This document shows, one piece after another, positions 20,676 through 32,085 of a DNA stretch of 64,000 nt. Under the pieces are notes generated by a model. It worked only from the letters and a program-made list of their open reading frames with translations, was not told the origin of the DNA and searched no databases. The stretch is from Candidatus Sumerlaea chitinivorans (GTDB lineage: Bacteria > Sumerlaeota > Sumerlaeia > Sumerlaeales > Sumerlaeaceae), in the NCBI GenBank assembly GCA_003290465.1, contig CP030759.1:1765144-1829143 (forward strand), in the 5' to 3' direction. Every line of letters starts with the position of its first letter. The first letter of the stretch is position 1. A program made the translations under genes and the position numbers.

Positions 20676-22460
20676 TTATTGTTCGAACAGTTCGACGAGA
20701 TATTTCCGCCGGCTCGGATGGCGAAGTTTGTTTAGGGCCTTTGTCTCGATCTGGCGGACACGCTCACGCGTGACGTTGAAGATCGTCCCCACCTCTTCGA
20801 GGGTTCGCGGGAAGTCGTTGTTCCCAATCCCGAATCGCAAGCGAAGCACCTTTTCTTCGCGCTCGGTAAGGGTCTTGAGGACTTCTTCGATCCGCTGGGA
20901 CTTGAGCACGTGCGCCGCCTGCTCGGCAGGGTTCGGAGCATCCGGATCATTGATGAAGTCACCAAAGGTCGAGTCACCATCCTCGCCGATGGGTGTTTCG
21001 AGGGAAATGGGTTGTTGAGCAATTTTTAGCACGCGGCGGATTTTGTCCACCGGCATTCCCATTTTGTCGGCGAGTTCCTCGGGGGTGGGTTCGCGACCAA
21101 GCTCCTGAACAAGATAGCGGCTTGCACGCGAGAGCTTGTTAATGGTTTCGATCATGTGGACGGGAATACGAATGGTACGTGCCTGATCGGCAATCGCACG
21201 TGTAACTGCTTGGCGAATCCACCACGTTGCATAGGTAGAAAACTTGTAGCCACGTTGGTACTCAAACTTATCGACTGCGCGCATGAGGCCGATGTTGCCC
21301 TCTTGGATGAGATCGAGGAACTGGAGGCCCCGGTTGACATACTTTTTCGCAATCGAGACGACGAGGCGGAGATTCGCTTCGACGACTTTCATTTTCGCCC
21401 GGTGAGCAATTTTCTCGCCGGCTTCGATCTCTTTGACGATCTGGGACAATTCTTCGTACGTGTTCCCAGCCTCTTTTTCGAGGCGCTTCACCAAACGCTG
21501 AGCCTCACGCACTCGCTTGTCGAGTTTGATGAACTGGTCGAGCGTGAAACCGTATTTCTTTTCCAGCGCTTTGGCTTCGGGGGAATTCTTGCGCGTCTTT
21601 TTAACGATACGGCGCAGATCCTCTTCACTGAGCATCGTTTCCAAAAGAACAGTGCGGATTTCCTGATTCGCACGATCGATCTGCGCGTAAACGTTTTTGA
21701 TGTGGGAGGCAATTTTTTCGATCTCAGTAAAGTTAAGATCGATCTTGAGCAAATGCTCAAAAATCGTTTGCCGATCCTTCTCGATTTGCTTGTGAAGCTG
21801 GTCGCGCTTGCGCTGGGACAGGTCTGGATTATCAAGCTCATCGAGCTTGTTCATAATGTCCGCGTAGAGCGCCAAAATCGCGTCGAGATTGTCAAGAATG
21901 TGCGCGGTGTAGCGATTGCGCTCTTCGGGATTATTCTCATCGACGTTCGCACGCAATACGTCGTTTAGGTTGACCGCTCCCGACTCAACGCGGGTGTGAA
22001 GCTTCTTGAGCTCGATCGCGGTGGCACTGGCGCGCGCGATGGCCGCGGTAATTTCGTGGCGTCCCTTTTCGATCTCTTTGGCAAGGGTGATCTCTTCCTC
22101 GCGCGTGAGAAGAGGGACTTTTGCCATTTCGGTGAGGTATTGACGCACCGGATCATCAGTTTTCGACCCGTCGCCATCGCTCTCCTCCGGCAACTCGTCT
22201 TCGAGCGCCTTGGCGAAATCGAGGTCCTGCTCTTCTTCGACGGCGTCCTCACCCTTAGCCGCAAAAGCTGCGGCATCTTTGTCGTCGTAGACTTCAATGT
22301 CGAGCTGCTCTAATTGCTCGAGCAGCGAGTCCATTTCCGCCGTGGTGGCATTAGCTGGCAGGAAATTGTTGATATCCTCGTAAGTGAGGTGTCCTTTTTC
22401 CCTGCCCAGTTCAAACAAAGACTCGTAGTCTTGGTAGTTCGAGTCGCGGCTTGGCGTCAT
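20676..22460 (-). CDS. rpoD: Primary sigma factor RpoD (sigma-70)
   Basis: The housekeeping sigma factor, 594 residues. Region 1.1 is at the N-terminus ([17 protein letters not shown]), followed by an acidic linker and region 1.2 ([11 protein letters not shown], residues 102-112). A non-conserved region of about 200 residues follows (about 150-345). Region 2 has [17 protein letters not shown] (383-399) and [13 protein letters not shown] with the promoter-melting aromatics. Regions 3 and 4 have [17 protein letters not shown] as the -35 helix-turn-helix and RHPSRR at the end. The ribosome site GGAAGGGG precedes the ATG. All elements of a group 1 sigma are present. Confidence 0.98.
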
Positions 22461-22922: not shown

Positions 22923-23333
22923 TCAGAAATCAGGATCGGAGAACGGGAAGAAGTCGTCGTCCTCCGGTTCCTCGGCGTCCATAGCCGCAGATTCGATCAG
23001 GCTTCTGTACTTCTTACGGAAATTGGAAATCTTCTTGTCCGCAATCAGATCAAAATTCAATGGGCTGGCTGGATCATAGAATTCCATTATCGCGTTCAGG
23101 CCAGATTTCGCATTCTCACGGAGTTGGAAAAAGCGATCCACAAACGCTTGGGTTGTTCGGTCACTGTCCGGCACGGGTGGCCTTTGATCGAAAATCTCAG
23201 CCATGTAGACATCAACTGCCCTTCCCTGTGCAGCATCGAGCTCCCATTCAGCATCGGCGAGCCGATTCAATAGCTCAGTGAGTTCTGCTTCGGACGCCGC
23301 TGCCTCTCGCTCAAAGGTCTCGAGATGATGCAA
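22923..23333 (-). CDS. Distal part of a frameshifted sigma-70-like protein (degenerate region 2)
   Basis: A 136-residue frame whose first usable codon is a TTG at 23333 with hardly any ribosome site. I read it as the continuation of the gene that starts at 23989, reached by a -1 shift at the A6 run 23335-23340. Joined this way, the C-terminal part aligns with RpoD residues about 319-420: EREAAASEAELTELLNRL matches [18 protein letters not shown], and FFQLRENAKSGLNAIMEF matches [19 protein letters not shown]. The promoter-melting Trp pair of RpoD region 2 is replaced by Lys-Lys (ADKKIS). The protein ends in an acidic tail (EEPEDDDFFPF) and has no sigma region 3 or 4. Homology is my reading by eye. 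Confidence 0.6.
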   Translation of the reverse strand: MHHLETFEREAAASEAELTELLNRLADAEWELDAAQGRAVDVYMAEIFDQRPPVPDSDRTTQAFVDRFFQLRENAKSGLNAIMEFYDPASPLNFDLIADKKISNFRKKYRSLIESAAMDAEEPEDDDFFPFSDPDF

Positions 23334-23989
23334 CTTTTTTCCAGCGCTACGATGTCGGATAAAGTCTTCTCGTCCATTTCCAAGGCTGGTTGGTCCTCAT
23401 TGCGACCACTCGAGGCATTTTTAGCGATCGATTTCAGCTCGGTCTCGGTCAGCTCTAATTGCTGAAGAGCTGCTCTGAGCTCCTGACGATCTTCGTGCCA
23501 AATGCGAAGCTTTTCTAAAATGGAGTTGGCAAGCTTACGAATGCTCGCATTGGTAAGGTTCAATTCGCGCAGCGCATGAAGAATCCGCACGCGCGAGTCC
23601 TCGCAATCTCTGAGCAGGCTTTTTTGTTTCTCCGGAGCTGTATCGGGCGAATAAGCTTGCTGCCACAGGCTTCGGATACGCGCACATTCAAATAGGATTG
23701 CTTCGATAGAATGTTTGAAGCGATTTTGCCATTTTCGTGGGTTCGACACGCACGAACGCGTTGTTAATTGCATTCCTTTTTTGGGAAACTCGATTGCAGC
23801 ATATTCACGCAGGGCATCCGCAAGAAGGCTGGTGCTGGAGATGATTTTCAGAAGCTCATCGCGTGCTTCTTCCATTTGCGTTAGATACTCTTGGCGCTCT
23901 TCCTTGCTCTCCACTCTCCTTTCCCTGTAATACTCGATGACCACGAAGACGGTGCTAAAACTGGCGGCTCGATTTTTCTCCTCGCCCAT
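23267..23989 (-). CDS. Proximal part of a frameshifted sigma-70-like protein (region 1.2 end and non-conserved region)
   Basis: A 240-residue frame. The start is the ATG at 23989 with a perfect AAAGGAGG upstream. The helical sequence aligns without large gaps to RpoD from the end of region 1.2 through the non-conserved region. KEERQEYLTQMEEARDELL matches Rpo[20 protein letters not shown] (residues 120-138), LRELNLTNASIRKLANSI matches [18 protein letters not shown], and DRQELRAALQQL aligns with [12 protein letters not shown]. The match breaks off at codon 218 exactly where the A6 run occurs and continues in the next frame (22923-23333). The last 22 residues of this frame (SCIISRPLSERQRR...) are off-frame sequence. 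The gene lies 460 bases upstream of rpoD on the same strand. It could be a sigma decoy or regulator made by slippage, or a decaying duplicate. Confidence 0.65.
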   Translation of the reverse strand: MGEEKNRAASFSTVFVVIEYYRERRVESKEERQEYLTQMEEARDELLKIISSTSLLADALREYAAIEFPKKGMQLTTRSCVSNPRKWQNRFKHSIEAILFECARIRSLWQQAYSPDTAPEKQKSLLRDCEDSRVRILHALRELNLTNASIRKLANSILEKLRIWHEDRQELRAALQQLELTETELKSIAKNASSGRNEDQPALEMDEKTLSDIVALEKSCIISRPLSERQRRPKQNSLSY

Positions 23990-24450
23990 TTTTTCCTCCT
24001 TTTCTGGCCGTGGCCCCTGCCCCCTCGCCAGCGACATCGTACCACCCCGAACCAAGCTGTGGAGAGTCACCGTTTTCCGAATTGCCCAAAGACGCGGTCA
24101 CACACACGCACACGGTGGTTCATCGCGGAGTATCAGCAAGACAGGAAAACGGACAACTTTAGCCGTGGATGGTAAATGCGGCGCGTGCGAGGTAGCTTGT
24201 TGGATTTATCTCCATTTGTGGTGAAGAAAGCCACTGCCCCCCCCTATTCTACTGCAGGATTAATGCTCCGGGTGCTTTTTATTCACATGGGTATTTTTTC
24301 CTCAATGTCGTTTTTGGGAGGCCACCCAATCCCATTCAGGATACCCCTGCAACATTCTGTCTCCGCATTTCGGGTAGTGCTTCGCATTGCGCCGGATTCT
24401 GTTGAATTCTTTGGCGACGAAGTCATTTCTAACCCACGGGACAGCGAACA
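23990..24450. other. Divergent intergenic region of 461 bases
   Basis: It lies between the sigma-like gene (-) and the TsaC fusion gene (+), so it must hold both promoters. I find no convincing promoter pair, RNA gene or repeat. Weak open frames here lack ribosome sites and overlap each other. Confidence 0.35.
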
Positions 24451-26394
24451 ATGGTGCGGGTGGCAATCGTCTATACGGAAGCGGCAAATCCCTCCGCATG
24501 GGAAGAGTGCGCTCGCTCGTTGCGCGACCAAGGGCTTGAGGTTTTGCTTTTTTGCGCTGACCCATTGCGCCGCGGGCCTCAGCTTCTCGAATTTCTTGAG
24601 CAGGCCCACCGAGAGAACGTGGCCAGCATTTTGGCGATCGAGGGCAACGTCCTTCGCTGCGCACCCATACTATCGGGCCACAGCAACGTTCCGGTTTTTG
24701 CCTTGTGCACCAGTTCTGAAGCAACTGACTCAGCGGCTTTGCGCGTGTTGAGTGACGAGCCGGAGTTTGCACTGGTGCAGCCGCCAACAGTCGCAGCCGC
24801 CGTGGGTCTTTTGCTGCGAGTCTTACAAAGGGTGCCTCAGACTCAACCTGCTGACACTTCGTCAGGTGAAAGAAAGTCACCCGTCGCACCAAAATCGGAG
24901 AGCGGTCAGGTGCGTGCAAAGCCGGCAGCGGTAACCGCTCGTGAAAAACATTCCGACAGCGATGATTGGTTGACACGCATCGCGAGCAATTTCCGCCCAC
25001 AGCTTAAGACTCAACGCATCCCGACACATCGGCCCAACGCCCCTCGGCCACTTGAGTACAGCGTGGAACTGCGCAAGGTGGTTGCGACTGCACGCGATAT
25101 TGCTGCGGCCTACGGAAGCGAATTTGTCGGCACCCTTCATTACCTTGCGGCCATCATGGACTCCCCGCAGAGTATCGGGCACGAAGTTCTCCGGCGAACA
25201 AACGTGGATTTTGACGCGCTGGCGCAACGGCTCACTTCAGCTTTCCCCAAGGCGGAAACTCAAACCGTAGCGACGTTCGCACCGGATGCAGGCGCGACTG
25301 CAATGGTCTCGCTCGCGCGACGGATTGCGCGCAATCGGGGGCGTCCGCTCTTGACGACCGCAGATTTTCTCGAGGCGATCGCCACGCAGGCTGAGTCTGT
25401 CGCGGCCCAGATCCTCGACGAAGTTGGTGTCACGCTGGGCAAGCTCCATCAGCTTTTTGAAGCGCCCGATTTGCCCGCTGAAACGTTACCTGAATCAACG
25501 TTGCCCAAGGAGCCCGAACAAGCTCCTGTCGTGGAGATCGACCCGCAAGAGGTGCTGCGGCTCGAGTCTCGCTTTTTCAGACAACAACGCAGCTCCCGCG
25601 AGACTCATGCGGCTGCCCGAAACATGCTGTCCCATCAAGCCGAAGACAATAAGTCGACCGCGACTTCGGTACATATCGAGGTTACCGAGACTTGCCGTAT
25701 ACCTACGGACAGCGCGGAAACAAAGGATTCGAAAGGTCGGACGGTGCCACCAATCATCCTTAAGTGTGATCCTCTCAACCCACCGCTCGAAGTAGTGGAA
25801 CGAGCCGCGGATTTCCTGCTGGAAGGCAAGACGGTCTGTTTCCCCACGGACACTGTGTATGGCGTGGGGGTGGACGCGACCAACCCTGATGCGGTGGAAC
25901 GATTGTATTCCCTGAAGGAACGGATGCGCGAGAAACCCATTGCGGTCCTTATCCACTCTACCACCCAGTTACGTCACATTGTGCAGGAAATCCCACACGA
26001 CCTTGAGCCCATCATGGAAAAGTATTGGCCGGGACCGCTGACGATCGTTTTTCGACGTCGCGCCCGGAATTTCGAGGCGATTTCGCGTGATAACACGATC
26101 GGGCTGCGGATTCCCAACCACTATGTGACGCTGGCCATTCTGAGTATGGTGGGAAGGCCACTCGCTACCTCGAGCGCCAACATCTCGGGTGATGTGAGCG
26201 CAGTAGAGCCCCATGAGGCGCTGGCTCAGTTAGGGGACCGGCTCGATATGCTCATTGACGCAGGGCGCACGCCGGGAGGAAGTGCTTCTACCGTCCTCTC
26301 GGTGGTCGAAAAACCTTACCGCATTTTGCGTCAGGGCCCAGTAAGCAAAGAAGAGATCGAAACGCTTTTGGGCAACGAAGTTGTCGTGGGGTAA
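24451..26394 (+). CDS. Three-part fusion: PurE-like domain, Clp-N-like domain and TsaC/Sua5 threonylcarbamoyl-AMP synthase
   Basis: 647 residues. The C-terminal part (about 440-645) is a complete YrdC/TsaC domain that makes threonylcarbamoyl-AMP for the t6A base of tRNA. It has TVCFPTDTVYGVG, LKERMREKPIAVLI, YWPGPLTIVFRRR, IGLRIPNH and LATSSANISGD. The middle (about 200-350) looks like a double Clp-N repeat (LRKVVATARDIAAAYGSEFVGTLHYLAAI and AMVSLARRIARNRGRPLLTTADFLEAI), the substrate- or adaptor-binding fold of ClpA/ClpC. The first 130 residues resemble PurE/AIR-carboxylase in layout (VRVAIVYTEAANPSAWEECARSL ... SGHSNVPVFAL ... PTVAAAVGLLLRVL), but the catalytic loops are not clearly kept. 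Low-complexity linkers join the parts. The TsaC call is firm, Clp-N is likely, PurE-like is tentative. It converges on the GT4 gene, with stops five bases apart. Confidence 0.82.
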   Translation: MVRVAIVYTEAANPSAWEECARSLRDQGLEVLLFCADPLRRGPQLLEFLEQAHRENVASILAIEGNVLRCAPILSGHSNVPVFALCTSSEATDSAALRVLSDEPEFALVQPPTVAAAVGLLLRVLQRVPQTQPADTSSGERKSPVAPKSESGQVRAKPAAVTAREKHSDSDDWLTRIASNFRPQLKTQRIPTHRPNAPRPLEYSVELRKVVATARDIAAAYGSEFVGTLHYLAAIMDSPQSIGHEVLRRTNVDFDALAQRLTSAFPKAETQTVATFAPDAGATAMVSLARRIARNRGRPLLTTADFLEAIATQAESVAAQILDEVGVTLGKLHQLFEAPDLPAETLPESTLPKEPEQAPVVEIDPQEVLRLESRFFRQQRSSRETHAAARNMLSHQAEDNKSTATSVHIEVTETCRIPTDSAETKDSKGRTVPPIILKCDPLNPPLEVVERAADFLLEGKTVCFPTDTVYGVGVDATNPDAVERLYSLKERMREKPIAVLIHSTTQLRHIVQEIPHDLEPIMEKYWPGPLTIVFRRRARNFEAISRDNTIGLRIPNHYVTLAILSMVGRPLATSSANISGDVSAVEPHEALAQLGDRLDMLIDAGRTPGGSASTVLSVVEKPYRILRQGPVSKEEIETLLGNEVVVG

Positions 26395-26399
26395 AGCAC

Positions 26400-27569
26400 T
26401 CAGACTCTTGCTGTCCGCCGCTCAAGAGCCCGACGGTAAGCTTCCAAAGTCCGCTCGGCCCGAATATCCTCCGTAAAGCGTTCGAGGACTTTGCGCCGAG
26501 CTGCTTCACCCATGCGGCGTGCTTCCTCCGGATTCCCCAGAAGGCGAATGAGCGCCGATTCGAGCGCTGCATCGTCATCTTCCGGCACAAGCAAGCCATC
26601 GGCCCCGTGTGAAATTGTATCCACGAGGGCACCCTTGCGCACAGCGATGACAGGGCGAGCTGTCGCCATAGCCTCCAGTGCAGCGCGCGCACTGCCTTCG
26701 CTTCCGAGCCCAAGGAGAAGCCCCACGTCCATTGCCGCATACGTCTCTGGGAGATCGTCGGTCCGGTAGCCAGTCAGCAGGACACGGCCGCGATACTGCG
26801 GTTTGCGCAATTCGTGACGAAGGAAACTCTTAAGTTCTCCTTGGCCCACAATCCAAATAGTGGAGTTTGGAACCGTGGCGACAACACGCGGCGCCACACG
26901 AAGCAACCAGCGGTGCCCCCGATTGTAGCCCAGATGAGCGACGAGACCGGCCACGCGTGCGTCCGGGGGTTCGCCCATATCGGCACGGACAAGAGCGGCG
27001 CCGGGGAGGTCTGGCCGAAACCGGTTTGGATTCACCCCACCGTAAATCACCTCGACTTCGTCGCAGAGGCGCGGATAGGCGTTCTCGATGATACGTTTCT
27101 GTTCTTGGGAGACGGTGATAATCAGATCGGTTGCGCGTTGAAAAAGCCAAGCATGCGCCGGATCGCGCCGCATGGATTCATAGCGATGAACGGTGCGAAC
27201 GAGCAGCGGCCGTGTTGGGCCAAGTCGCCGCAAGGCAAGAGCTGCGATCCAATGATCATGGATCAGGTGGCAATGAACAACGTCAACCTGCTCGCGTTTG
27301 ATGAACTCGCAAAGGCCACGGATCGTTTCAAGCTGAACCCACGGCCGGTAATCGTAACGAAGCTCAAAACCCGTGGCACGGGGTACGCGTCGGGCTTCCA
27401 CGACTTGCTCGAACGAACGCCCCCAAATCCCTGCCACCCAGACGGTGTGGCCACGGGCCTGCTGAAGCTGCGCAGTACTTACTGCAGGCTCGGCCACCCC
27501 CGTCCAGCGACTCGTCGCAAGCAGATGCAAAATTCGCAATGGTTCTGTACTGGCACGCCAGCTGGTCAT
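26400..27569 (-). CDS. Family 4 glycosyltransferase
   Basis: A GT-B-fold retaining glycosyltransferase of about 389 residues. The ATG at 27569 is preferred over a TTG at 27590 because GAGAG lies upstream and similarity starts at LRILHLLATSRWTG. The N-terminal domain has QLQQARGHTVWVAG and VDVVHCHLIHDHW. The C-terminal domain has the nucleotide-sugar region VAHLGYNRGHRWLL, IVGQGEL, LTGYRTDDLPETYAAMDVGLL and the E-x7-E-type element EGSARAALEAMATARPVIAV. The sugar and acceptor are unknown; neighbouring envelope genes suggest a surface glycan or LPS. Confidence 0.9.
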   Translation of the reverse strand: MTSWRASTEPLRILHLLATSRWTGVAEPAVSTAQLQQARGHTVWVAGIWGRSFEQVVEARRVPRATGFELRYDYRPWVQLETIRGLCEFIKREQVDVVHCHLIHDHWIAALALRRLGPTRPLLVRTVHRYESMRRDPAHAWLFQRATDLIITVSQEQKRIIENAYPRLCDEVEVIYGGVNPNRFRPDLPGAALVRADMGEPPDARVAGLVAHLGYNRGHRWLLRVAPRVVATVPNSTIWIVGQGELKSFLRHELRKPQYRGRVLLTGYRTDDLPETYAAMDVGLLLGLGSEGSARAALEAMATARPVIAVRKGALVDTISHGADGLLVPEDDDAALESALIRLLGNPEEARRMGEAARRKVLERFTEDIRAERTLEAYRRALERRTARV

Positions 27570-27660
27570 TGAATTTGACTCTCGTGGCAAGCAATTGGGT
27601 GTGTGAAGTGGAATTATTCACGCGATATTTGCAAACACTTTTGCTGAGGTAAACCTGATC

Positions 27661-30600
27661 ATGCAAAAGCAGGCACCGCTCGCACGTGACGGCAAAAAAG
27701 TAAACAGGACATTCTCGTTCCTTTGCTACGCGATGCAATGCTTGAGGATGTTGGGTAAGATAAGACGAGCTCGGGAAATCATTGTTTGTTCAGTCGCTTT
27801 TGTTTGTGCAGTCAGTTCCCCTCTCCAAGCAGCTTCCCCGGTGCAGACCCATCCTCTGGACAACCTGTCGACTACTCTCCCCGAACCTGAGTGGATTGCG
27901 GAGGCTGCTGAACTGTGTCGGCAACGGCTTGCCGAGCCAGACGCTCGTGTCGTGCGGACTAATGCTTCCGCGCAGGAATTGTTGGTCGAATTTGAGGTAG
28001 TACGCGTTCCCTCAGATGGCATGGTACGCATTCCCTTAGTCATTCCTCGCGGTGAGATTACCAGCTTCACTTTGCTGCAAATCGTGCGGGGCGGAAGCAC
28101 CATCACGGATGAGGCGACTCTAAAAAGCGTTCTGTGTAGCGTGGAGGAGTTAGGGTACGTTCGTGCTTTTCGGATTGCCCGGCTAAAAGTGCGTGTGGGA
28201 GAGCCCCCCTTCAGGCTGCCCACCATTGAGCGCGGCACCGTCAGCATCCGTTTCGCACCGGCGCCCCCCAACCGAGATCCCAATGCAATCCGATTCTGGC
28301 AACAGAACCGCGTGGGGATTTTCCGGCGGTTGCTCAATCAATTTGTCGCAAATCCACAAGACCTTGAGCGCTACATCGTGATTCCCGAAAGCGCAATACC
28401 GAGCTCGGTCAGTCAGCCCGCTCCTCCGCCGGAGGCCATCGCGCGGTCGCCGTTCCGTATGCGCATTCCAATTGAAGTGGACGGCATTTACCAAATCTCG
28501 GGAGCGGATTTGGAGTCGTCCGGTGTGGTGGGAAGTTGGATTGACCCACGTCACATCCGTCTCCTACTACGAGGCAAGGATGTTCCGCTGCTTTATCTAC
28601 CTGCGGACGGTACGCCGGCAAACCAGCTACGACCGGGCGACCGACTCGTTTTCTATGGCAGGGCAAACCCCTCTCCCTTTACCCTCCGCAACATTTACTG
28701 GCTAATCTATGACCCGGAAAACAAGCATCCCCAAATGCAAGCTGCTCGCCAGCCAGAAGAGACCGAACCAGCGGATACGGCGGCGGCTTTCTTCGAGAAG
28801 CATCTGATCGAAACCGACTCAAAAGTACTCACTCGGAGCGATCAATTTCTCTCGATACTTGGCTACCGATGGGTTTGGCAGCAACTGGAGCCAAACAAGC
28901 CATTCCGCGTTGAGTTCGATCTGCCCGGCCTGGCTCCTGTGGCGACTGACCTCCCCGGCGTTCTCAACCTATACGTTCATTCGTTCCCTTCGGACTCAAG
29001 CGCGACCGTGCAACTGCGCATCAATGATGTGGCTGTTGGGACATTCTCGGTTAGGAATCTTTCGGACGACCGCAAAACTTTCAAAATCCGCAGCTCAGCA
29101 TTGCGGGAACACGGCAACCGCGCCGAGATCACTCTTTTGAGCTCATCCCCTACTCCCAACCGGGCCGAGCAGGCGGAGATTTATTTGGATAATCTGGAGC
29201 TTTGGTACCGCCGCTTGTATCAGTGGGATGGGAGTGCTTTCACCTTCCATTCCCCCGACACTGGAATCAGTTCGACCAGTGCAACAAGAACGTGGGAGTA
29301 TGTGATCGGGGGGATACCAAGGGGAGAAGAACTCGTCGTTCTCGATGTCACCGAGACACATCCCTTGGTCGTCAAACACCGCGTGCAGGAAAAATCACCG
29401 GGGAATGCCGTCCTTCAGGTGCGCGCTATTGAAACTGGACTTCGACAATACGTCGCGATGCCTGTGAAGGCCATTCCGTCCGCTCCCCTTCTACCCGAAG
29501 GGGGCGAAACGACCAATCTGCGGGCACCCAACGTGAAAGCTGACTATATTATTATCGCGTACCGGGATTTTCTCGCCCCCCTCACCCCGTTGGTTCGCGA
29601 ACTGGAGAAAGCAGGGCATCACGTGCTTGTGGTGGACGTGCAATCGGTTTACGATCAGTTTGCGGACGGAGAGGAGACTCCGGAAGCCATTAAACGTTTC
29701 TTGGATTATGCGGCGCGTCATTACGAAGGGTCGGCGATGCATCCGCCCGCCAGCTATGTCTTACTGGTGGGTGATGCCACCAGCGCTTATCGGAATGAAT
29801 TTCGCAATCACGTCATCAACTACGTTCCCACGTACCGTATGGCGACGACACCGGGGGGAGCCGAGCAATGGGCCTCAGACCACTGGTACACGACTTTCTT
29901 CGGTAAGGATGACTTAGCTGACGCGTTCATTGGGCGGCTCTCCGTCAATAATGTGCGCGATCTGGAGAACATCGTTGCGAAACTTGTGGAGTACCGTTCC
30001 CAACCGCGTAGCGACTGGCAAAGGCAGGATTGGACGAGAAGCGTGGCATTCATCGCGGACCACTCGGAGTTCTCCGAGCCAGTCAACCGGGTAATGAAAA
30101 CGGTCCCCCCCTCGCTGAATACGGAGAAACTCTCGCTGGACGATGAGCCGTGGGAGGACAACTTCTACTATCCTAGGGAGATCGCAGAAGCGAAGCGTGC
30201 CAAGGTAAGCCGAGAGATGACGCGGAAAATCCGTGATCTTTTCAACAAAGGGGCCGCTGTGGTGAGCTACTTTGGTCACGGCTCTCCGAACATTTGGTCC
30301 ACGCAGCGCATCTGGTTTGGAGGTGACAGTGAGAACTCGGACAACCTTATGTTGCGCAATCGCGACAGGCTCCCATTCGTCATGAATATGACTTGCAATA
30401 GCGGGGCGATTGATTACCCGATGCCTAGGTGGAACATTTGCATTAGTGAGGATTTCCTTCGGGTTCCCAACGGCGGCGCAATCGCCTGCTATGTGCCTTC
30501 TGGCCCCGGCATGACCTTGTTCCACGAACAGTTCTCGAAAGAGATTAACCGAGCACTCTTTGCTGAGCAAACCGAGCCAGTGGTGCCAGCGCTCACCCTT

Positions 30601-32085
30601 GCAGGTTGGCGTTATATTCTTCAGGAAGGCTACACCAATTTAGTCCGCATGTTTATCTATTTGGGGGATCCAGCACTGTCGCTTCACCTCCTGCAATCCG
30701 GAGGGATGTTTCAATTGGGTTTAGCCAAGGCCGAGGAGCTATCGCTGGTCGAGATGGCGCTGCTCTCCGATCGAGTGGTCGAGGTCGGCACGACAGTGGC
30801 GGTCCGTGCTCGGCTCCGCAACAACTCGTGGGCGCCGGCACGGGAAATGACAGTGTCGTTGAGCGGCAATGGGCTCGAGCCCTCAGACGCGCCCAGTTTG
30901 AGTTTCTTCCCCGGCGAAGAACGAGAAGTAGTACTTTCGGCGCGAGTCGGCAGAGGTCTCTGTCCTGTCAATGTGCGAGTAACCGCTCGGCAAGGCAGTA
31001 GCAACGTGTTGAGGCCAGAGCCAGCTGTCGCAGTCTGCGGCCGACAACACGACGAATCGGCACCGCTCCTCATTGCAAAGGAGCTCACGGAGATTGAATA
31101 CCGCAATGATGCGGGGCTCCCGACCGCAGTCGTGCGGTCAGAGCTCTTCAATCTTACTACGGCCACGTTGCCGACGTTCACTGTGGCGCTTGAGGACCTG
31201 AACGGTGCCCTTCTTGAAGATACGCGCACAAGTGTGCCGGCATTGAGCGCAGGACAAAGTTATCGCTTTGAATTGGTGCGCCCCTATCGGCGCACAATCC
31301 CCGACCGAGAGGAGGTCCGAATTCGCCCAGAACTTCCACATTGGGTTGCAAAGCAGGAAGAAATTGAAAAGCCTACCCTCACCCTTGGGCTGGAAAACAT
31401 GCCCGACCTCGCCATTCTTCCGGGGGGGATTCTGCCACACAAGGCCATGCCGGTGGATGGTGAGACCGTTTTCTTCCGTGTGGCTGTAGAAAATCGGGGT
31501 GGAACCGTAGCTCGCAATGTTCGGGTGGATGCCTACGATGGGGACACGAGTACGGGGCAACCTCTACTTTCGCGCATTCTGAAAAAGTACGATCCTGTGA
31601 AATTGGCCCCGGGAGAACGCGGAGTCGTCACAGTACGTTGGGATCCATTTCAGAATGCGGGCGAACATGAGCTCCTGTTCCGCGTGTGGGGGGCATGCGG
31701 CAATCTCGAGAAAGACCTCACAAACAATTCTCGAACGATCCGCCTGCGCGTACTGGAGAAGTACCGGTTGAAGCCAGCTGGGCTTACCGTCATCCCTCCC
31801 GAGAGCAGTGGTCCGAATGCAAACAAGCTTCGCGTGCGGGTGAAGGTGCGCAATGAAGGTGAGAGCCCGGCCCACGGGGTCAAAGTTGTTGTGTACCGAG
31901 ATCGCAAGAACAAGACGCCCTCAAATGTGCTCGGCGAGACGTTGATTGAGGAAATCGCGCCTAAATCCGAGCAAGAGATCGAGATCGCCTACGATTTGAA
32001 ACCGCAAGATGCGGGGAAGCGATTTGAGCCCGTGTACGAGGTATTTCTGAAGGGGTCCTTGCAACGTGTCCCGTGGCCGGAATAA
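27661..32085 (+). CDS. Secreted C25 (gingipain-type) cysteine protease with CARDB-like domains
   Basis: 1474 residues. The signal peptide is around residues 30-57 (REIIVCSVAFVCAVSSPLQAA). The ATG at 27661 has a distant GAGG, so an internal start at 27733 or 27748 is possible. The central domain (about 620-1010) has the caspase-like C25 pattern: VLLVGDATSAYRN and FIGRLSV, the catalytic His in VVSYFGHGSPNIW, and the catalytic Cys in FVMNMTCNSGAID. The N-terminal half is beta-rich and unassigned. The C-terminal 400 residues contain repeated CARDB-type Ig-like units (VENRGGTVARNVRV ... NNSRTIRLRV; VRNEGESPAHGVKV). There is no type IX secretion C-terminal domain that I can recognise, unlike many Bacteroidota relatives. 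A role in extracellular proteolysis or processing of surface proteins is inferred. Confidence 0.83.
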   Translation: MQKQAPLARDGKKVNRTFSFLCYAMQCLRMLGKIRRAREIIVCSVAFVCAVSSPLQAASPVQTHPLDNLSTTLPEPEWIAEAAELCRQRLAEPDARVVRTNASAQELLVEFEVVRVPSDGMVRIPLVIPRGEITSFTLLQIVRGGSTITDEATLKSVLCSVEELGYVRAFRIARLKVRVGEPPFRLPTIERGTVSIRFAPAPPNRDPNAIRFWQQNRVGIFRRLLNQFVANPQDLERYIVIPESAIPSSVSQPAPPPEAIARSPFRMRIPIEVDGIYQISGADLESSGVVGSWIDPRHIRLLLRGKDVPLLYLPADGTPANQLRPGDRLVFYGRANPSPFTLRNIYWLIYDPENKHPQMQAARQPEETEPADTAAAFFEKHLIETDSKVLTRSDQFLSILGYRWVWQQLEPNKPFRVEFDLPGLAPVATDLPGVLNLYVHSFPSDSSATVQLRINDVAVGTFSVRNLSDDRKTFKIRSSALREHGNRAEITLLSSSPTPNRAEQAEIYLDNLELWYRRLYQWDGSAFTFHSPDTGISSTSATRTWEYVIGGIPRGEELVVLDVTETHPLVVKHRVQEKSPGNAVLQVRAIETGLRQYVAMPVKAIPSAPLLPEGGETTNLRAPNVKADYIIIAYRDFLAPLTPLVRELEKAGHHVLVVDVQSVYDQFADGEETPEAIKRFLDYAARHYEGSAMHPPASYVLLVGDATSAYRNEFRNHVINYVPTYRMATTPGGAEQWASDHWYTTFFGKDDLADAFIGRLSVNNVRDLENIVAKLVEYRSQPRSDWQRQDWTRSVAFIADHSEFSEPVNRVMKTVPPSLNTEKLSLDDEPWEDNFYYPREIAEAKRAKVSREMTRKIRDLFNKGAAVVSYFGHGSPNIWSTQRIWFGGDSENSDNLMLRNRDRLPFVMNMTCNSGAIDYPMPRWNICISEDFLRVPNGGAIACYVPSGPGMTLFHEQFSKEINRALFAEQTEPVVPALTLAGWRYILQEGYTNLVRMFIYLGDPALSLHLLQSGGMFQLGLAKAEELSLVEMALLSDRVVEVGTTVAVRARLRNNSWAPAREMTVSLSGNGLEPSDAPSLSFFPGEEREVVLSARVGRGLCPVNVRVTARQGSSNVLRPEPAVAVCGRQHDESAPLLIAKELTEIEYRNDAGLPTAVVRSELFNLTTATLPTFTVALEDLNGALLEDTRTSVPALSAGQSYRFELVRPYRRTIPDREEVRIRPELPHWVAKQEEIEKPTLTLGLENMPDLAILPGGILPHKAMPVDGETVFFRVAVENRGGTVARNVRVDAYDGDTSTGQPLLSRILKKYDPVKLAPGERGVVTVRWDPFQNAGEHELLFRVWGACGNLEKDLTNNSRTIRLRVLEKYRLKPAGLTVIPPESSGPNANKLRVRVKVRNEGESPAHGVKVVVYRDRKNKTPSNVLGETLIEEIAPKSEQEIEIAYDLKPQDAGKRFEPVYEVFLKGSLQRVPWPE

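Follow-up and report, generated by a model that had tools for sequence, protein, structure and literature searches.

A PurE-like, Clp-N and TsaC fusion protein, most likely the only threonylcarbamoyl-AMP synthase of Candidatus Sumerlaea chitinivorans

The window analysed here is a stretch of 64,000 nucleotides from the single-contig genome of Candidatus Sumerlaea chitinivorans (G000; phylum Sumerlaeota). It contains a gene that joins parts of three protein families in a single reading frame (Table 1). A prediction made from the letters alone had proposed a PurE-like domain, a double Clp-N repeat and a TsaC domain in this order, and all three domains are upheld by profiles and predicted folds. 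The full-length AlphaFold2 model, built on a 28-row alignment, has a mean pLDDT of 83 and a pTM of 0.44, and inter-domain contacts are not readable from it. A scan for promoters and terminators gave nothing above shuffled sequences.

Table 1. Features of the fusion gene and its immediate neighbours, in positions of the window
Feature	Position	Strand	Basis or remark
PurE-like / Clp_N x2 / TsaC fusion gene, 647 aa	24451..26394	+	ATG to stop
PurE-like (AIRC) domain, residues 1-128, catalytic motifs lost	24451..24834	+	profile, fold, motif alignment
Low-confidence linker, residues 129-202, pLDDT mostly <60	24835..25056	+	AlphaFold2 model
Double Clp_N domain, residues 203-343	25057..25479	+	Pfam stretches 25090-25239 and 25315-25461, fold
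L229, position of ClpC E32 (phosphoarginine site 2)	25135..25137	+	alignment; site from available part of PMC12583610
A304, position of ClpC E106 (phosphoarginine site 1)	25360..25362	+	alignment; site from available part of PMC12583610
Second linker, residues 344-435, low pLDDT; single predicted helix at 365-390	25480..25755	+	AlphaFold2 model
Complete TsaC (YrdC) domain, residues 436-641; no SUA5 domain after	25756..26373	+	Pfam, fold, NCBIfam
KxR motif, K489-E-R491	25915..25923	+	alignment
SxN motif, S575-A-N577	26173..26181	+	alignment
rpoD-type sigma factor, divergent neighbour	20676..22460	-	kept in G001, G002, G003, G005
Glycosyltransferase, convergent neighbour	26400..27590	-	kept in G001, G002, G007

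The gene place, with rpoD and hisA on one side and the glycosyltransferase and a C25 peptidase on the other, is partly kept in five relatives (G001, G002, G003, G005 and G007). The same architecture and location in relatives rule out a frame or assembly accident; the fusion is real and conserved, and the claim of a genuine multidomain design is confirmed. No PurE-TsaC or Clp_N-TsaC fusion is described in the literature searched; the negative is a weak one, since "purE" reads as "pure" in such searches. A contig search with the window's protein as lone query returned two matches, both TsaC-only. Among plasmids, 110 records matched, none with query coverage of at least 80%, and five among the matches listed were TsaC-only. 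The protein is classed with TsaC, in a new architecture, and not with PurE or the Clp proteins.

Two neighbouring genes deserve mention in their own right. The peptidase gene (27661-32085, plus strand), whose 1474-residue product combines a gingipain-type Peptidase_C25 domain with CARDB, stays beside the fusion in several family members. Beside rpoD lies a 267-residue open reading frame (23267-24070, minus strand). A single comparison with the sigma factor next to it gave a match of 28% across 113 residues (E 2e-6), within the sigma factor's non-conserved middle region. The frame has no counterpart in the relatives' neighbourhoods compared, and its sequence suggests that it is perhaps a diverged partial duplicate of that region.

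The TsaC domain had been predicted to be complete, and fold, family profile and both catalytic motifs agree that it is. PF01300 (Sua5_yciO_yrdC) matches residues 455-629 with an E-value of 4e-53 (179.8 bits, cut-off 25.1), the NCBIfam profile TIGR00057 scores 179.7 bits against a cut-off of 123.2, and residues 436-641 match solved TsaC/Sua5 proteins by sequence. Residues 432-647 of the full model align with Thermotoga maritima TsaC2 at Z 33.8 (rmsd 1.3, 214 residues aligned). The KxR/SxN tetrad, given as the functional signature of TsaC/Sua5 in the available parts of PMC3223725, PMC10321239 and PMC9654439, is intact (KER 489-491, SAN 575-577). TsaD and TsaE are both encoded in the genome. No second TsaC was found in its one contig, the other YrdC match being HypF, and this outcome favours the original prediction; completeness is given as 96%, which makes a missed tsaC possible though unlikely in a single contig. 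Because there is no other TsaC in the genome and both motifs are intact, the fusion is most likely its only threonylcarbamoyl-AMP (TC-AMP) synthase.

At the other end of the protein, Pfam AIRC (PurE) matches residues 4-93 of the fusion protein alone with an E-value of 0.0048, below the family cut-off. When the N-terminal regions of 27 fused proteins were combined into a profile, it matched solved PurE at E 2e-47. Residues 1-128, folded alone with AlphaFold2, reached a pLDDT of 89, and the model aligns with PurE entries at Z 15-18 over 122-127 residues. The relatives' profile match and these fold matches rule out a generic Rossmann fold. The PurE catalytic motifs are lost, the SAHRTP position reading CADPLRRGP and the HLPG-type loop reading IEGNVLRCAPIL. 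His45 of E. coli PurE, named in structure entry titles, is presumably catalytic. A separate purE lies elsewhere in the genome (G000:C1:1264478-1264924), and because it does that job the fused PurE half may be regarded as a dead remnant. The motifs lend good support to the view that in this genome the TsaC half alone is alive and the PurE half catalytically dead. The predicted PurE-like domain stands by fold and profile, with one correction: it is a PurE in decay, which goes back to a purE-tsaC gene pair and a class-wide fusion.

In the middle of the protein, Pfam Clp_N exceeds its cut-off in two stretches (51.7 bits against 20.7; the best at residues 214-263, E 9.5e-14). Residues 206-334 match a solved ClpC N-domain by sequence, and residues ~201-343 of the full model match ClpC and ClpB N-domains at Z of about 19-22. 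Family profile, solved relatives and fold point to Clp-N and to nothing else, as had been predicted, and any other identity is ruled out. A Pfam scan of the fusion found no AAA family. By phmmer score, the closest relatives are the ClpC-type N-domains of the class, and in a tree six fused Clp-N domains (that of G006 lay outside the set) form one clade with support 100/100. ClpC binds phosphoarginine through E32 and E106, according to the available part of PMC12583610. Both glutamates are kept in each of the 14 ClpC-type domains from the class that were used for comparison. The fused domains have lost both in five cases out of six, the window's protein included, and G005 retains the first only. 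With both glutamates lost the module is not a standard phosphoarginine reader, and a working reader of the ClpC kind is ruled out.

We searched 61 genomes, 40 of them, with the window's own, from Sumerlaeota. PurE-TsaC fusions occur in 28 of the 40, with one aligned protein each; the count excludes G014 and G018, which are truncated at contig ends or ambiguous, and G020, G023, G025, G027, G035, G037 and G039 yielded no fusion. A YrdC domain is present in all 28 proteins and an AIRC match in 24, and Clp_N reaches the Pfam E limit in five. The Clp-N insert between PurE and TsaC is confined to the window's family (f1), in seven of eight members (G000-G003 and G005-G007, with G007 counted although its contig starts within Clp-N). 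In the eighth, G004, no fusion was found, Sua5 only. Outside the family a plain linker joins PurE to TsaC. What sets the window's family apart is the Clp-N insertion alone; the PurE-TsaC fusion is spread through the class.

The same two genes stand side by side as separate genes elsewhere, with purE and tsaC/sua5 adjacent in one Sumerlaeota genome, G039, and in five from other phyla (G044, G045, G050, G058 and G059). A search of 77 genomes of G044's phylum found 63 with both halves, lying within 300 bases of each other in 52 of the 63, and none with both in one open reading frame. There the two often overlap by a few bases, a conserved purine/t6A gene pair. In G010, the fusion comes after, and overlaps, an open frame with purH domains. 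In the TsaC tree all fused domains group with those of G009 and G011 (support 99/98), apart from the phylum's stand-alone Sua5s. The G009 and G011 domains are unfused yet group with the fused ones, so the fusion either was lacking in the common ancestor of the class or was undone. The simplest account, well supported by these comparisons, is that the fusion arose early in the class from an existing purE-tsaC pair.

Both KxR and SxN are kept in 14 of the 28 fused TsaC domains, the window's included, and no separate competent TsaC/Sua5 was found in any of these 14 genomes. SxN is lost in the other 14, of which G032 retains KxR, and 12 of their genomes carry a stand-alone Sua5 with both motifs; none was found beside the motif-less fusions of G006 (66% complete) and G036 (80% complete). 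Separate open reading frames of ~590-850 residues with YrdC matches were taken as HypF by length, an assignment confirmed for that of the window's genome. G008 was rejected as an exception to the concordance: its 219-residue second copy passes TIGR00057 but has neither KxR nor SxN. The association of TsaC decay with a stand-alone copy gives a Fisher p of 6e-6, uncorrected for the genomes' relatedness. The tree places the losses in two groups, G002/G003/G005 and f7 plus f13, and G006 on a long branch of uncertain position; since the losses cluster in few clades, few independent events stand behind the concordance.

A similar pattern holds for the other half. The PurE motif SAHR(T/S)P and the LPG loop are kept in six of 27 fusions (G010, G012, G019, G024, G028 and G030), and another strong PurE occurs in none of these six genomes. 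A separate purE is present in 20 of the 21 genomes with a decayed fused PurE; in the remaining one, G017 (82% complete), it was not found. Because the motifs are intact and no other strong PurE is present, the fusions of those six genomes are probably true two-enzyme proteins. In G035 the separate purE match (L063) sits in a 614-residue open frame, which may be a chance extension.

How the ClpC-like module might relate to TsaC is suggested by other genes of the genome. It encodes ClpC-type and ClpB-type proteins and an McsB-like kinase, which scores high, yet under NCBIfam's own cut-offs. ClpS was not found in it and is present in 5 of 14 control genomes. At G000:C1:2717198-2719793 (within L155:5893-8869), tsaD, an mcsA-like gene and an mcsB-like arginine kinase gene stand in a one-strand row. 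Rows of tsaD, a Cys-rich mcsA-like gene and mcsB occur in G000, G001 and G002, the mcsA-like gene of G000 having CxxC and, by Pfam, a UVR motif; in G007 tsaD adjoins mcsB by coordinates. This adjacency is found in four of eight f1 genomes versus none of 27 other genomes of the phylum with an mcsB match, and in many other genomes of the phylum mcsB, by coordinates, adjoins a Clp_N gene instead. In Bacillus subtilis, TsaD is arginine-phosphorylated and degraded by ClpCP under McsB/YwlE control, as stated in the available part of PMC7546277. The accessible portions of the literature searched on tsaD and mcsB contain no mention of the gene adjacency. The original prediction had linked t6A synthesis to a protein quality or regulatory interaction. 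The gene rows and the TsaD precedent speak for such a link and the lost phosphoarginine glutamates against it; by analogy with B. subtilis, a connection between t6A synthesis and proteolysis is plausible.

The reading that we prefer, with a probability of roughly 0.7, is that the fusion is the genome's only TC-AMP synthase, derived from a fused purE-tsaC pair, with a dead PurE retained for structural reasons and a Clp-N domain that puts TsaC either under the ClpC/McsA/McsB system or beside it. Fusion of the gene pair early in the class would have produced the ancestor of the window's gene, and a double Clp-N domain derived from a ClpC-type chaperone would have been added in the ancestor of f1. 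The loss of the phosphoarginine glutamates speaks against ClpC-like recognition by the fused domain, which may be a protein-interaction module with other contacts that brings TsaC within reach of the proteolysis system. The PurE remnant could be a structural or assembly part. TC-AMP made by the fusion would start t6A synthesis on tRNA, which TsaD would finish. The function of the TsaC part is likely and specific; the roles of the PurE remnant and of Clp-N are ones that we infer. Against the ClpC link, tsaD-mcsB adjacency is absent in four of the eight f1 members and is also seen in G002, whose fused TsaC has lost its motifs. It is tempting to speculate that f1 has two fixed connections between t6A synthesis and ClpC/arginine-phosphorylation proteolysis: tsaD would be co-transcribed with mcsA and mcsB, and TsaC would bear a mimic of the ClpC N-domain that competes for, or recruits, ClpC adaptors. 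We hold this stronger version to be decidedly unlikely; if true, regulated proteolysis would set translation fidelity, with a purine signal contributed by the older purE-tsaC pairing.

One could also envision the PurE and Clp-N parts as neutral baggage, a fossil of the purE-tsaC fusion plus an accidental insertion that merely tethers. PurE remnant and linkers do diverge fastest in f1 (mean identity 0.19-0.21, against 0.42 for TsaC), and either half decays where a stand-alone copy exists. However, identity in Clp-N averages 0.29 and reaches 0.57, a higher level than the 0.21 of the linkers; the Clp-N fold is kept, and the insert is retained in seven of the eight f1 members. Moreover, the motif-less TsaC domains of f7 and f13 are still at dN/dS of 0.05, 0.08, 0.16 and 0.19 in four pairs, values that are approximate because dS is near or above 1 in most pairs. 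This alternative is possible, if on the whole unlikely.

The signal of purifying selection suggests a non-catalytic role for those motif-less domains, and it lends itself to another view: that the fusion is a regulator or scaffold, a pseudoenzyme, first, with TC-AMP synthesis as a dispensable second job. This would explain why the protein survives with both halves dead in G002, G003, G005 and f7/f13, and motif-less versions do make up half of the fused proteins. We nonetheless find it rather unlikely, given the uncertainty on the dN/dS values and the 14 of 28 genomes in which no competent copy besides the fused TsaC was found, where catalysis can hardly be dispensable. In f7 and f13 (for example L024, L025, L026, L029, L031, L036 and L037), the linker from PurE to the motif-less TsaC half has short stretches that recur in several members, among them RPGA and TPxPQEP, which are possible linear motifs.

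Chemical coupling, in which PurE and TsaC, both using bicarbonate-derived N-carboxy (carbamate) intermediates, would share CO2/bicarbonate, is very improbable and cannot apply to the window's protein, whose PurE site is destroyed: PurE uses N5-CAIR chemistry, TsaC2 was solved with N-carboxy-L-threonine (structure entry titles), the two genes are paired in most genomes of G044's phylum and six fusions have both halves intact, but gene pairing can also mean mere co-expression.

The preferred reading, a TC-AMP synthase within reach of ClpC-type proteolysis, bears on a pathway that is among the few universal tRNA modifications and whose cellular tuning is poorly known. The PurE-TsaC fusion and the purE-tsaC pairs of another phylum together give a "Rosetta stone" hint that step 6 of purine synthesis is coupled to step 1 of t6A synthesis. 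The ClpC-type domain, the tsaD-mcsA-mcsB row and the McsB/ClpCP control of TsaD make a link between tRNA modification and proteolysis directly testable, and the motif-less yet conserved TsaC domains of sister families offer a natural enzyme-to-pseudoenzyme series. The architecture as a whole hints that purine synthesis, tRNA modification and protein degradation are connected in a way not described before.

Compared with known systems, the fusion resembles PurE (N5-CAIR mutase) in fold and profile, and intact-motif versions exist in sister families; it differs in the loss of the SAHRTP and HLPG-type motifs from the window's copy. With the ClpC N-terminal domain it shares the double Clp_N repeat and the fold, and its highest phmmer scores fall on ClpC-type proteins from the class, but it lacks AAA modules and has both phosphoarginine glutamates replaced. 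Mycobacterial ClpC2, too, is without AAA modules. It has the Clp_N fold in its solved C-terminal domain (8ad9, Z 20.4) and, unlike the fusion, is not joined to a tRNA-modification enzyme. With TsaC/YrdC TC-AMP synthases the fusion shares the complete domain, its fold, and KxR and SxN, and it is the only copy found in the genome. TsaC is described as single-domain in the available part of PMC10321239, whereas ~430 residues precede it here. Sua5 has the same catalytic domain and in addition a C-terminal SUA5 domain. The fusion stops six residues past the TsaC domain, and the phylum's stand-alone Sua5s extend 100-140 residues beyond theirs. The YciO subgroup lacks KxR and SxN, both of which the fusion has, and so it does not belong there. 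HypF, TobZ and TsaN are likewise YrdC domains fused to partners (available part of PMC9654439; title of entry 8ide), but their partners are Kae1-like/TsaD and maturation domains, while those of the fusion are PurE and Clp_N.
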